A DNA stretch of 64,000 nt from Lepidurus packardi (taxonomy: Eukaryota > Arthropoda > Branchiopoda > Notostraca > Triopsidae), in NCBI GenBank assembly GCA_023053545.1, contig JAKZAN010000005.1:5146001-5210000 (forward strand). Direction: 5' to 3'. The notes beneath the pieces are model-generated. The model was not told the DNA's origin. It saw only the letters and a program-made list of their open reading frames with translations, and did no database searches. The stretch's first letter is position 1. Each line of letters begins with the position of its first letter. Positions 9,732 through 38,872 of this stretch are shown here, in pieces. The translations under genes and the position numbers were made by a program.

Positions 9732-12700
9732 ATGGGAGACAGTGAGGATGAATACGACCGTCGTCGCCGCGACAAATTTCGCGGAGAACGTAACGAATAC
9801 CGCGGAAGCGAAGCCGGGGCTCGAAGAGGAGATGAAGGTAGACCTCGTCGAGAAGAATGGGCGGATCGCCTTCCTGTAGAAAAGTAACTCTTAACTTTGC
9901 TCGCTTACTTCTAAAATTAATTATTTCTTGGTTTGTTCCTCTAGAAGGGAGGGATGGCCAGCCAGATCGCGACCCCAACCCAGACCCGAATATCGAGAAG
10001 CTTATCGTGGTCGAGACAGAGGTTATAGTCCTGCTAGAAGCCATGAACCAGCTGCTAAACGCATGCGTGGTGGCGAGTGGTAATTTGTCAAACTTTATCT
10101 CAGATTTTGTGAAGACAATACTAGCGATGTCACTTATTTTAGGGAAGAACGACGATATCCTTATGAAGGCAGTTATGGGGGTGGGTCTTATGGAAATTGG
10201 CCGGCTGAATCCTATGGCAGTGGAGGCCATGGTTACTATGGTGGTAGTGGCAATGTTGCAGCAGGTGGAAGGTATGAAAAAAACTTGGCTTTTTTTTATC
10301 AAAATTCTAGCGTTTTCCGCAATGCCATCTTTATCACTTCGTTATTAGGGAGGATAGCGGTCCTACTCAGCCACCCATGATGTCATTTAAAGCATTCCTG
10401 GCGGCTCACGATGACTCCATCTCGGATGACGAAGCTGTGAAAAAGTACGCGGAATATAAGTTAGAGTTTCGGCGTCAACAATTGAACGAGTTTTTCACTG
10501 CTCACAAGGACGAGGAATGGTATGTATTTTTCCTTAGTTTGTCTTTCTTTCTGTTAAATTTCAACCCTTTGACAAACACCCAAAAGAATATAACACTTGT
10601 AAACTATATAAATTGAATGAATTAAATGTTGCATAATTTTTTGAATCCTACCACATCAAAGACTTGCAATAATTTGGGAGTTTGTTCTTTGTTTCTATAA
10701 TGTTTGTATAATCCAGAAATTGCCTTCACAGCTGTTCGTCAACAAATTCGCAAGCCCTGAAGAACAATGCAATGCAAGATTTTTTACTTTGTGCCCACCA
10801 AAACAACGTGTCAACAAAATCTGTTGGAAAATTTTTTCCCCAAAGTCGATATATTATGAGAGCTTTTTTGCTCGGTGCTTATTTCCAAATCGCAAAAAGC
10901 TTAGGCTAGATCTATCCCTTAGCGCGCAATGCAAGGGGTAAGTTAGGGTTTAGCTAGGCCAGCGGAAGTGCTCCCTCATGACGTCACTACATGAGGGAGA
11001 GACGCACAGGGTGGGATCAGGTGAGGTATAAACATCAAACAGTAAAAAAATTTTCCGCAAAAAAATAATAAAAAAATCATTCCTAAAATTCTGTAACCTG
11101 GATCCAGTAGGCAATCTTTTAAAAAATTGAGACTATTCAGCAATTCTTGTGTAATTTCAGGTTCAAGCTGAAGTTCCATCCTGAAGAAAGCGCAAAAAGA
11201 AAATCCGAACAGCTCTCAGGCCTCAAAGTAATACATGCTGACAGCTTTTTTAGCTACTTGATAATGTAGCTAATTCACTTATTTTATTTTTATAATTATT
11301 TGTAGCGTCGAATGGATGTTTTTTGCCAATTGCTTTCGGAAGGAAAGTTCGAAGGGTTGTCCTTAGACGCGGAACATGCCGAAAAGCTGGTTAGGTTGCT
11401 AGATACGGTGGTGATTAAGTTAGAGGGCGGGACGGAAGAAGATTTGAAGGTTTTGGACGCGCCCAAAGTAGAAGAGCAGTTTGCATCACCGCCTGTGCTG
11501 GAGAAGCCAGCGAAAACTGAAGAAAGTGTGAAGGAAACCGAAAATACAAAAACGGAAGGGAAAGGGGAGGAAAAAGTTGATACAGAAGACGGAGAAGAGG
11601 TAGAGGAAGGTGGGATTAAATCTCCGCAAGAAGAAGGCGAAAATGATGTCGAGACTGAAGACGGCGAGGACGACTATACCAGGAAAGCGAGGGATTTGCT
11701 CAACAAAGAGACAGAACCTGAAGAAAAATCCCGCAAACGTAAAGCGAGCGATGAGTTTGAATCAGAGGGTGAATCGGACAAAGAAATGCCACCAGGTTTG
11801 CGATTCTATTTTGGTTTATTAATTTATCGTAGTAGTGAGTTTGTGTAGCAATGCATTAACTCAGTAAGCAATTTTTTTAATCTCTTGTTAATATATGTAT
11901 TAATGAATTAGTTAATTAATGTTTTTATCCTTTTACGATACAGGTTTTAACGAGACCGAGAAAGAGAGGAGTCTGACAGAGGATATTTCCCAAGATGCTC
12001 TTGATGTAATTGTTTACAGTGTAGTTAGACGAGAATACTTAATCCTTTTATGTTTGGGCTAGAAGAAAGAAGTATTGGAAAAGGAGGAGAAAAAGGATAA
12101 AGACACAGAAAAAGAAAAGCCAGCCGTACGGGAATTGCATCGTACTTCCTCTATCTTTTTGCGGAATCTGGCGCCTACCATTACAAAGCAGGAAGTGGAA
12201 GCGGTAAGTGTACTTAAACATGTCATAATTAAGGTATGTCATATTTTTAATATTTTATTTTGTTATTTATTTGTTAGATGTGCAAACGTTATCCTGGATT
12301 CCTGCGTGCAGCCATTGCTGATCCTCAACCGGAACGTCGTTGGTTCCGTCGTGGATGGGTTACATTCGAAAGAAGCGTTAATATAAAAGAAATCTGCTGG
12401 AACTTGAACAATATTCGCGTAAGTTTTTTTGGTTTTCTTGGTTACTTCCCGATTTTCCTATACAACTAACTTTCCTTTTGCAGCTACGCGATACGGAATT
12501 GGGGGCAATTGTAAACCGCGATTTGAGTCGGCGAATTCGTACAGTAAATGGAATTACTTGCCATAAAAATGTCGTGAGGAACGATATACGTTTGGCTGCG
12601 CGGATTGTGCAAAATCTCGATAGTAGATGGGGCTTGTGGGATGACACTTCGAAAGAGCAAACAGAAGCTACCAATGGAAAGGACAATTCCGTAAGAAAAT

Positions 12701-14607
12701 CTGTCGATATGAACATGGAAGGAAACTTTATCCATACTTACTGTGTGTTGAATTTCACAGCCATTCGGAGTGTTCAGTCGCAATCCTGTGTTGCGTAACA
12801 TCACAGACTACCTCATTGAGGAAGCCTCCGCAGAGGAAGAAGAACTACTCGGTTCTTCTGGTTTAGAAGAAGGCGAAGAGGGTGAAGGTGGTGCTTTGAT
12901 GCGTGACGACGAATTGGCGCGGGTTTTGGATCGTTTGCTGTTGTATTTACGAGTAGTTCACTCGGTGGATTACTATAATCATTCGGAGTACCCCAATGAG
13001 GACGAAATGCCCAATCGCTGTGGAATTTTGCACGTTCGTGGCATCCCGCCAGCTTCCAAAGTGTCTCTACAAGAAATTTCCGAGTATTGTTCGGTGTTCG
13101 AATCCAAAATCGCCTCTTTTATGCAGTCGATCCCTCGCTTAACGGAGGAAGAAGCTGCCAAACTTGGTTTGAAGGACACGAAGAGGTAAAACACATTTTT
13201 TCTTCCCAATGTTTTTGATTTGTATGCTCATTAAACCTTTTTCTGGCATAGTGAGGTAGAAAAGTTTATTGCGGCCAATACCCAGGAATTGGCGAAAGAT
13301 AAGTGGCTTTGTCCTTTATCAGGAAAGAAGTTCAAAGGCCCGGACTTTATTCGGAAACATATCACGAGCAAGCACGGCGAGAAGCTAGAAGAAGTGAAGC
13401 GCGATGTGGAGTACTTCAACCAATATTTAAAAGATCCCAAGCGACCACAACTTCCAGAACATCCTGGCAATAAAACCGGAGGGGGTGGAGCCGGTCCTGC
13501 TGCTACTCGACCCAGCAATTTATCCGAATATCGACCAGACTACCCACCACAGCCAGCGTAAGTTTTTCTTGTTTTTTTTCTTCAGGTGTCGACCGATATA
13601 ATACCATTTAATGTATCCTGCTATCTGCTATGGAATTGTATGTGCAGCTAAACTGAGCTTAACTGAATCGCTTTATAGGTACAGTGGCGGGTACAACCCG
13701 CGGCCCCATCCTCCGTATGGTGGACCGCCTGCGGGCCATTCATATGGCGGTGGGCGGGAATATGGACGTGCAAGAGGAGGTGGCAAAGGCAGGGGAGCGT
13801 AAGTAACTGTTTTACTTACTTTCTTTCTGATTAGGGCTGAATTTTTAGTTGTAAGTTACGTGTTAAATATTTTTTTTACAATGGGCGTCGATGTCGTCGT
13901 AGCCGAAAGTGATTTCTGTGGATTTGTACAAAGTTTCTGCAACCACTTCTATTTTTCTTCCGTATCTTCAATAGAATTTTCTATACTGCCAGTGAAAAAA
14001 TCAAAATAAATGCTTCATTAAAGAGCAAACTTAAACTTCCTTCTAAAATGTACCAGAGCAACAGTAAATTTTCCTATGTTGAATAATTAGGCAGTATTTT
14101 CGGCAGAAGCTTTGTACTTTTCTCAAAAGATCTCAAGTCCAGAATCGAAGTTGAAGCAAACTACTGGATGTTGTTTGAAGCTAGTTTCTTTTTTGAAGGC
14201 TACATTAGTTAAAATTTAAGCGGTTTAAGGCAGATTTAAGAACTTCGATAACGATTTTATGCTAGTGGAAAAGTCGTTTTCTAAAAAACAGTTATATGTG
14301 GTTGCAGGGCCCAGGCCTCATATGAAGGTCGAGAAATAATCGGCTATGATGACGTCGACACTCCAGCCGATGTTGACCTGTTTTGATCAAATTCCTTCAT
14401 GGTATGACTCCAAATTTCATTTTATTTCTTACATTAATGTTTCGTAAAAAAAATCCATTTGTGTGACGGTTATTCCTTCTCTTTTGAGTTGAAGTGTCCT
14501 TTTCTAGTCGAATCTTAATATTTTAATTTTTGTGTCTTAGTAATCGGGAACGGCCTGTTACACATTATCGAGACTTGGATGCGCCCCGGGACATGGACGA
14601 GTTTTAA
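9732..14607 (+). CDS. Srrt: ARS2/SRRT (Serrate), nuclear RNA effector protein
   Basis: Exons: 9732-9883, 9945-10079, 10143-10271, 10349-10519, 11161-11227, 11306-11795, 11944-12005, 12063-12203, 12278-12418, 12484-12690, 12761-13185, 13252-13557, 13679-13798, then either 14308-14386 or 14541-14607; 874 or 870 aa. ARS2 bridges the cap-binding complex to microRNA processing, 3' end formation and RNA decay in the nucleus. In order: RS/RD-rich N-terminus ([17 protein letters not shown]), [16 protein letters not shown] domain, acidic linker, RRM-like part, zinc finger (LCPLSGKKF with HITSKH), a Gly-rich tail ([12 protein letters not shown]) and the C-terminal tail. The distal last exon ends [14 protein letters not shown], matching the conserved cap-binding-complex contact motif (YRDLDAP in human); the proximal one ends [13 protein letters not shown]. 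Both splice in phase 2 from exon 13. AATAAA at 14609-14614. Confidence 0.95.
10520..11160 (+). other. ARS2 intron 4 with a perfect 10 bp inverted repeat around a CRE-like site
   Basis: This 641 bp intron is ten times the local norm. At 10971-10999 ctccctcatg and catgagggag form inverted arms, with the palindrome TGACGTCA (CREB/ATF consensus) at 10979-10986 reaching into the loop. The region around 10900-11010 is also more GC-rich than the rest. It could be a small insertion or an intronic regulatory site; no transposon ends were recognised. Confidence 0.4.
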
Positions 14608-14754
14608 AAATAAAATAAAATTGGTGGGAGGGACCTGCTCTTCGCTTTATATTCATCCCCCAAACCCAAAAATTTTGGCTTCAACTTTAGACAGATTTGG
14701 ACAATACAGCCATATAAAAAAAAGATTGGATTTAGTTCTCAGAAAATCGTTTTA

Positions 14755-15795
14755 TTACGAGTCACTATCATCGCTTTTCTCATCCATGGCATCGTTGGTT
14801 TCATCTTTCTGGGATTTCAACATATGCCCATCGCCAAAGTCTTCAAATTGTCCATCTTTATTCCACATGGCTTCTACAGTAATGGCAAACTCTGCCATTT
14901 GTTCGCCCAAGAGTTTCTATACAAAAAGCAAATGTAAAACTTCTAGCTGAATTGCTTAATAGAGAAACGAACTAAAATTTGGGCTTGTTCAGGCGTTAAC
15001 GGTGCTCCTTCCTTGCACAAAGTGTGAGCTTTCACCAAATTAATAACTCCTAAATTTAGATTATACATGATTCATAAATATTAAGCTATTTTCTTTTGAA
15101 CAAAACGTTACCTTTCTGGAGGGTCGTGGGCAATCCCAATTGTCGAAGATACGGTTCCATGTTAAAAGGAAACTGTTCCAAAGGCCCTTCCGGCAGAATA
15201 ACTGTTTTGTTGGCAATATTACCTGCCCTGGCAAAGTCAGCTTCTTTGCGCTCTTTAAAGTATCTTTTAAAATGGAAAAAAATGGCATTTTAAAAAGGTT
15301 AACCTTTTTCTGCGTAAAGCTTTTCTTGCTACCTTAAAACATCTTCTTTCGACCTGTTCGTAAACAGCAAGCCACACTGTCCTCGTAATCTCTTTGAGAT
15401 TTCGTGTAAATTGTCTTGATGTTCATCTTCAACTGAACGACCTAAGGCCAAGGCCATGACGCGGTTTTTTCCAAAGAAGAACCTATTAAAAAATAATAAA
15501 ATTCAGTGGGGTTTTGAGGTTTTCTAATAGGACTAAAAGAAATGTAACCTGCTATCTTTCCATTCATTTCGGACTTGCTTTAGTTTGGCATTTCGCATAT
15601 TTTGCACGGAAAAGAGGTAAAGTGAATCAAATTTGTCCACGGAGTCTCGAATTTCTTCAACGAGCTGCTGCTTTAATCCCAAGCCTTTTTTCTTGGTTTG
15701 TGTCAAGGAAACTAAGAATAATAATTCGATTATGGCTTAACTAAACAGTTCAATATTTTAGACATACTTTTTTTAAAGCGCTTGGATCGTGGCAT
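14755..15795 (-). CDS. Mrto4: MRTO4, ribosome assembly factor (mRNA turnover protein 4)
   Basis: Six exons leftwards: 15795-15768, 15711-15549, 15482-15333, 15263-15112, 15049-14973, 14916-14755; 243 aa (human 239). MRTO4 is the paralogue of stalk protein P0 (uL10); it occupies the P0 site on nuclear pre-60S particles until late maturation. Family marks: MPRSKRFKK start, [70 protein letters not shown] and the acidic end DEKSDDSDS. Intron 5 begins with an unusual gttcgtttc donor, as does one SMARCE1 intron in this window. The gene converges on ARS2 (147 bp between stops) and is divergent from SF3B6, with which it shares a 222 bp promoter region. Confidence 0.95.
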
Positions 15796-16017
15796 CTTTG
15801 ATTAAAAATATTTTAACTTAACAAATAATTGACAAACGAATCCCACGTGGTTGTTAGGCGACTCAAGCTCCTCCCTTAAGCTTGCATCCCAGTTTCTAAC
15901 GTCACCTTGCGTTAAGCTTACGAAGCTTAGTTGCCAATAGTTGAACATTGCCGAGGAGACTGAGTTGTGTTTGGCTTACATTCTAGTTATTAGTAGTGAT
16001 ATAGAAAGCCAAAGGAA
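15796..16017. promoter_or_regulatory. Shared promoter region of MRTO4 and SF3B6
   Basis: The 222 bp between the divergent start codons must hold both promoters. It is slightly GC-richer than nearby intergenic DNA and contains the E-box-like cacgtg at about 15845. No TATA box was seen, as is common for housekeeping pairs. Confidence 0.5.
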
Positions 16018-38333: not shown

Positions 38334-38872
38334 TTAAGGCTCCCGTATACCTTAGCTCGGTATGGGCGGTTAGCTTGGGGATTTCCGGAACAATTTTTGA
38401 GAAAACCAGTGAATTCAATTAAAATATTACTTGAGAGTAATTTTGAGCTTGCTAACAGGTAGTGCACGACCAACGCATTTTTTTCTAATGAGTAATAAAT
38501 TAGCCATATGCAAATGAAATTTGCAACTATGAGAAATATGTTACCCAAAAATTCGTCTTTTGGTTGTGCACTAACTACTAACAAAATAAAAATCTTTTTG
38601 TTTGCTTTCAAATCTGACCGGCCGTTTTCGAGAAATCTTGTTCCGAAAGTTTGATGACTTGATTTGGGCACTTGACTTGATTATGCTGCTACAGCAAAGT
38701 GTGGTGATAAATGGTACTTTTCAGACTCAAAACAAGTGTAGAAACTTTGCGGGCAATTAGCTATCTATTTATTTCTTACTTTCTTTCGCACGGCTTTCGT
38801 AAAACAATAACTAACATGAATGTCATCTGTGACTCTGTCCCTTTAATAAGCTAAGATATACGGGAGCCTTAA
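38334..38872. mobile_element. MITE with TTAA target duplication (539 bp)
   Basis: TTAA at both borders (38334-38337, 38869-38872) encloses inverted repeats GGCTCCCGTATACCTTAGCT on the left and, reverse-complemented, GGCTCCCGTATATCTTAGCT on the right. TTAA duplication fits piggyBac or Kolobok superfamilies. No transposase frame. Its right border is 4 bp from the stop codon of NRF-6 copy c, so it forms the 3' untranslated region of that gene. Confidence 0.8.

Follow-up and report, generated by a model that had tools for sequence, protein, structure and literature searches.

The ARS2 gene of Lepidurus packardi appears to carry two tail exons downstream of its thirteenth exon, a proximal one (P) and a distal one (D), and the intron ahead of P contains a segment that is complementary to the middle of P over an uninterrupted run of 20 base pairs. 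ARS2 sorts new capped RNAs towards export, processing or decay. On balance, and with a confidence only slightly above even, we favour the reading that P is a real, old and selected cassette duplicate which is held under an RNA-structure lock, with D as the default.

The ARS2 gene and its two tail exons

ARS2 (SRRT/SERRATE) was rebuilt from the sequence of the window, that is the whole stretch of 64,000 nucleotides that was analysed, as a plus-strand gene with 13 exons spanning 9732 to 13798, followed by the choice of tail exon; the introns between these 13 upstream exons are GT-AG and 57–641 nt long. The predicted products have 874 amino acids with the P tail and 870 with the D tail. The identity of the gene, as proposed in the preliminary description, is supported by the match of exon 11 to human ARS2 (E 2.6e-45) and by two Pfam families, since both isoforms pass the family test with the SERRATE_Ars2_N and ARS2 domains above cut-off (PF04959 179.5–179.7 bits, cut-off 30; PF12066 123 bits, cut-off 27.3). 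The isoforms score alike, and the ARS2 profile match stops at residue 846, upstream of the tail residues that distinguish them, therefore it does not discriminate between P and D. We also considered whether the genome has another copy of ARS2 and rejected this, as searches with the DNA of the stretch, exon P, the P peptide and the intron element each led to a single site. The ARS2 foot peptide matched its own exon and, weakly (35%, E 0.046), a site on contig C109 (L024) of the same assembly. Downstream, a minus-strand gene at 14755-15800, which we take to be MRTO4-like, is arranged tail to tail with ARS2 and ends about 150 bp from the D stop codon, and it is followed by a plus-strand RRM protein from 16020 onward that is presumably SF3B6-like.

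The common upstream exon 13 (13679..13798, plus strand) ends in phase 2 (GGA GC/GTAAGT), and the assertion that it can be joined to both P and D holds up with respect to coordinates, splice dinucleotides, phase and peptides. P has its acceptor at AG/14308 and its reading frame closes with a TGA at 14384-14386, which agrees with the stop of its own that had been attributed to it. The acceptor of D is AG/14541, and its coding part (14541..14607, plus strand), recognised by its frame and its ARS2-type tail match, closes with a TAA ending at 14607. A hexamer scan places two overlapping poly(A) signals (AATAAAATAAA; AATAAA at 14609 and 14614) directly behind it at 14609..14619 on the plus strand, as expected from the poly(A) signal assigned earlier to the distal exon. 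The spacing of 155 bp given for the two exons approximates the gap between the P stop and D (154 bases), but the exon starts are 233 bp apart.

Both exons encode an ARS2-type C-terminal peptide, and this part of the preliminary description is borne out by a permutation test as well as by a ranking within the window. When the last 18 residues were compared without gaps using BLOSUM62, D and human ARS2 scored 60, P and human ARS2 scored 54, and P and D scored 44, and none of 20,000 residue permutations matched the score in any of the three comparisons. When the 2,356 open 18-mers that precede a stop on either strand of the window are ordered by their score against the human tail, D comes first and P second, and the third and fourth score 43 and 21. 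The third is an unrelated open peptide on the minus strand at 32978-32922 (KRIVAFRSSDIGDAVDFF, followed by a stop), whose score is probably due to chance, since its surroundings showed no recognisable gene; a minus-strand open frame at about 32375-31900, presumably a diverged histone H2B-like frame, adjoins what we take to be an acyltransferase-like gene. Searched against PDB, P has a single match at E<=10, namely the ARS2 peptide on the cap-binding complex (5oo6_C), and this match is weak (E 0.48, 13.8 bits) and extends to the last residue; D matches 5oo6_C (E 0.042), again up to the last residue, and 8pmp_D.

The 19 codons aligned between P and D differ in 9, 7 and 13 cases at the first, second and third positions, respectively, and of the 8 residues (out of 18) that the two tails have in common, four are specified by different codons. 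The G+C content of exon P is exon-like at 0.51, the same as that of D, and that of the flanks is 0.29–0.33. Third positions near saturation, combined with conservation where the tail needs it, suggest that P arose by an old duplication of the tail exon and that both copies have been under selection, a view that draws on one pair in one genome with the human tail as the sole external reference for the 'ancestral' residues. Relatives were sought in viral_contigs (137 pattern stretches) and genome_contigs (594), and none was confirmed. If P were instead the dead remnant of an exon duplication and never entered the mRNA, the apparently decayed inverted fragment upstream of it would find a natural place. 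However, a neutral relic of such age should have lost the features that P keeps at near-saturated third positions, which include the open frame, usable splice sites at both ends, the right phase, and shared residues such as the contact residues Arg, Tyr, Asp and Phe, and we consider this explanation quite improbable. Judged by these sequence features, P is very likely to be used as an alternative coding tail.

Splice sites and the 3' end of exon P

Splice sites were scored with a position weight matrix built from the gene's own sites, which comprise only 12 acceptors and 13 donors. On this scale the P acceptor at 14308 scores 6.3 and ranks third of the 43 AGs between 13830 and 14599, and the D acceptor scores 9.0. 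The best of the 17 GTs from 14308 to 14540 is the donor ATG/GTATGA at 14401/14402, whose score of 7.7 lies within the range of the 13 other ARS2 donors (-4.0 to 9.8, median 6.8, leave-one-out). P is thus flanked by a usable acceptor and a usable donor, and can be read as a 94-nt cassette exon (14308..14401, plus strand) that is coding up to its TGA, with the stop codon 15 nt upstream of the donor junction, followed by a putative intron of 139 nt (14402..14540, plus strand) that separates it from D. The highest-scoring acceptor of the scanned stretch (11.0) is located at 13835; it is unsuited to a normal intron because it lies only 36 nt past the exon-13 donor.

A scan for AATAAA and seven variants detected no poly(A) hexamer between 14387 and 14540. 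Within the scanned region 13799-14760, AATAAA occurs at 14005, inside the intron, and at 14609 and 14614, and only the latter two are downstream of the P stop, so a signal of its own was found for D and not for P. The proposal of two terminal, mutually exclusive last exons is therefore not confirmed, and the missing signal before D together with the good donor argues that P is an internal, stop-bearing cassette exon that shares the poly(A) site of D, an assignment in which we have fairly high confidence on the strength of these predicted sites. The tails would still be mutually exclusive, owing to the stop codon of P and not to competing 3' ends.

Two other interpretations of the stop in P have to be weighed here. 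P could be a true alternative last exon, either by means of a non-canonical poly(A) site or through read-through to 14609 as one exon (14308-14607+), and indeed P has its own stop, D has a poly(A) signal, and retention of 14402-14540 would yield exactly such an exon; yet none of the eight hexamers occurs in 14387-14540 and there is a good donor 15 nt past the stop, which makes this improbable. Alternatively, as P introduces a stop that is followed by a spliceable intron, it might be a poison exon that lowers ARS2 via nonsense-mediated decay. Nonsense-mediated decay has a limit of 50–55 nt between the stop and the next junction, and a distance of 15 nt is inside this limit, hence decay of P transcripts is not expected; moreover, a poison exon would not have to encode an ARS2 tail, and we find this idea hardly credible.

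The tail peptides and the cap-binding complex

In humans, the ARS2 tail contacts the cap-binding complex (CBC) and NELF-E competes for the same contact, according to PMC5670239, which agrees with the role that the preliminary description ascribed to the mammalian tail. In the same study, the peptide is ordered at residues 852–861 and 868–871, with 862–867 lacking density, and the named contact residues are Asp852, Arg854, Ile856, Tyr859, Asp869 and Phe871. The combined loss of Arg854 and Tyr859 severely weakens binding, and F871D alone does little. The most conserved motif of the tail, 861-DLDAP, seemingly makes no CBC contact and has no density in the crystal, and its partner is stated to be not known (PMC5670239).

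When the two tails are placed on this structure, P keeps five of the six named contacts (Arg854, Ile856, Tyr859, Asp869 and Phe871), with Glu replacing Asp852, and D keeps four (Arg854, Tyr859, Asp869 and Phe871), a difference that is not significant and refers to a single species. Identity to human at the ordered positions amounts to 7/14 for P and 6/14 for D, and at positions 862–867 to 3/6 and 5/6, respectively. Like the human peptide in 5oo6, both tails align to the last residue and have Arg854, Tyr859 and the terminal Phe871 at the right spacing, and because each of them retains the contacting arginine, tyrosine and aspartate as well as the phenylalanine at the end, both should dock on the CBC. 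The human structure has a single tail with DLDAP; D has DLDAP as well, whereas P has DVDTP and also carries Asp at the position of Arg860. Given that DLDAP shows no density on the CBC, P departs from the human tail in conservation and not in contact. The suggestion that P provides a changed tail with perhaps weaker binding is therefore upheld for the change, but not for the weakening, and judging by its residues P need not bind the CBC more weakly than D. Whether DLDAP is the functional target of the tail choice is, from the peptides at hand, an evenly balanced matter.

Human ARS2 isoforms of 871–884 residues are listed in PMC5670239, and no alternative tail is described in the accessible parts of this paper or of PMC5923425. 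A literature search, with most subscription papers beyond its reach, retrieved no report of such tails, and a search for ARS2 and DLDAP yielded no paper besides PMC5670239.

An intronic complement of exon P

The segment at 13887..13906 (plus strand) of the intron before P is complementary to 14340..14359 (plus strand) in the middle of P, mostly codons for G-Y-D-D-V-D, by 17 Watson-Crick and 3 G-U pairs. This uninterrupted 20-bp run was absent from the preliminary description, and the three differences between its arms are all G-U-compatible. The stacking energy of the helix is -39.35 kcal/mol, a value reached by none of 2,000 shuffles and by 3 of 2,536 tiles of the window, two of which are the helix site itself and the third an inverted repeat at 38.3–38.9 kb. 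The latter consists of 24-nt arms (38334-38357 / 38849-38872) that are 96% complementary and 491 nt apart. In twenty 10-kb stretches (200 kb in total) sampled from other parts of the same assembly, 21 of 6,520 tiles (about 0.3%) are as strong, and they come from three loci (L004, L012 and L013), so that a stem of such strength is uncommon, not unique in the genome. Strong inverted-repeat stems were seen in 3 of these 20 stretches, and L012 resembles a simple-repeat array. Total duplex energy with loops allowed was as low in 1/500 and 0/500 shuffles and in 28 of 1,308 real tiles of the window, among which it does not stand out, and this test was replaced by the uninterrupted-stem measure.

In ensemble folds the helix is predicted with a pair probability of 0.99 at 37 C, rising to 1.0 at 20 C (0.99–1.0 across three stretches), and it disappears when the pair span is limited to 300 nt. 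The predicted fold of the intron plus P is 3.33 standard deviations below that of 20 shuffles. A nested 15-bp intronic helix is predicted between 13926..13940 and 14103..14117 (plus strand), which are 93% complementary, with a pair probability of 0.98–0.99. In addition, an 8-bp hairpin at 13799..13819 (plus strand; pair probability 0.97–0.98) would bury the exon-13 donor (GTAAGTAACTGTTTTACTTAC); the fold around this donor (10 nt of exon and 30 nt of intron, -10.7 kcal/mol) is the lowest among the 13 upstream-exon donors, and 8 of 1,000 shuffles are as low. No Rfam family matched at gathering score across the whole window. A sub-threshold mir-1006 match was recorded at 14134-14203 in the intron before P (21.6 bits against a threshold of 64, E 0.38, within 13600-14760).

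Two further modes of control through the intron were tried and rejected. Although the segment 13937..13951 (plus strand) is 87% complementary to the P acceptor (14293-14307), and may be a relic of an inverted copy, this pairing does not form in the ensemble, where its probability is 0.0; direct masking is also not predicted in view of the acceptor itself, which is about half unpaired (0.46–0.48). A docking/selector competition between P and D is disfavoured by the pairing energy of the intron element, which is -64.9 kcal/mol for P and -34.6 kcal/mol for D, and one docking site with competing selectors was not found. Aligned to the acceptor plus exon, 13870-13960 gives a local score of 37; as high a score is seen in 2 of 2,000 shuffles and 17 of 2,536 real tiles (4 of 2,000 and 59 of 2,536 under a second scoring scheme), and the flank similarity outside the stem is reached by 65 of 5,000 shuffles. 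The view that this region arose as an inverted copy of acceptor and exon in their entirety is accordingly only moderately supported.

The splice sites of P are as good as the others of the gene and come first, which implies that the use of D needs active repression of P. Without it P would constantly be used and D never be translated, a problem that a stem favouring skipping would solve, and the intronic complement is the only concrete lead on the mechanism of choice. In the scheme we propose, the helix would cover the middle of P and leave the P acceptor in a loop, and it would bring the exon-13 donor and the D acceptor, which are 742 nt apart, to an effective distance of about 270 nt, which is why D is taken as the default, and the hairpin on the exon-13 donor may slow commitment. 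Skipping of P (13798 to 14541) would give the D tail, and inclusion (13798-14308...14401-14541) the P tail, in which case D would serve as 3' UTR. P would be turned on by opening of the helix through a helicase or an RNA-binding protein, or by splicing that takes place before the P arm folds. As P swaps the non-contact motif DLDAP for DVDTP and Arg860 for Asp, the choice could then alter whatever partner reads DLDAP, with ARS2 staying on the cap. Based on the predicted folds, the chance that the helix is a functional lock falls just short of even. The most specific version, in which an antisense partial copy of P in the preceding intron is a cis lock and released P uncouples cap binding from the function of DLDAP, is speculative and doubtful.

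It is also conceivable that P does serve as an alternative tail exon but is chosen by ordinary splicing factors, with the helix as an incidental by-product of an inverted duplication. Such an inverted copy would account for both the stem and the acceptor-like segment 13937-13951, and stems of equal strength exist elsewhere, at three loci in the 200 kb and once more within the window tiles. The helix, however, sits exactly on the alternative exon, all its arm differences are G-U-compatible over the 20-bp run, and the other three loci resemble long inverted repeats or simple-repeat arrays, unlike the P helix; this explanation appears unlikely, if still worth taking seriously.

The proposed lock can be set beside several known systems. 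RNA structures choose between mutually exclusive 3' variable regions in the Drosophila genes PGRP-LC, CG42235 and pip (PMC9013439). ARS2 resembles them in its duplicated C-terminal, 3' exons, but their structures compete for each 3' unit, whereas in ARS2 a single arm pairs with P and far more weakly with D; furthermore, the ARS2 arm is within coding sequence and P is apparently a cassette and not a terminal exon. With docking/selector systems of the Dscam type (reviewed in PMC6071210), ARS2 shares a tandem exon duplication combined with intronic complementarity in an arthropod-like gene, but a second selector, one that would act on D, was not detected, and only one exon of the pair is covered. 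The single arm for P and the lack of a comparable D partner suggest that the ARS2 element would lock a single exon and is not a docking/selector pair. In humans, conserved pairings that loop out exons are accompanied by reduced inclusion, and splice sites that lie within a pairing tend towards inactivity (PMC8052449). The ARS2 helix likewise brackets an acceptor, which in the human cases goes with skipping; its 3' arm lies inside the exon, unlike in the human pairings, and it is known from one genome, whereas the human pairings are defined by conservation.

If the proposed lock is real, the intronic complement of P would represent a simple and testable case of a duplicated exon becoming alternatively used. 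Moreover, an ARS2 isoform that keeps the CBC contacts but has an altered DLDAP would, if true, be a natural separation-of-function variant.
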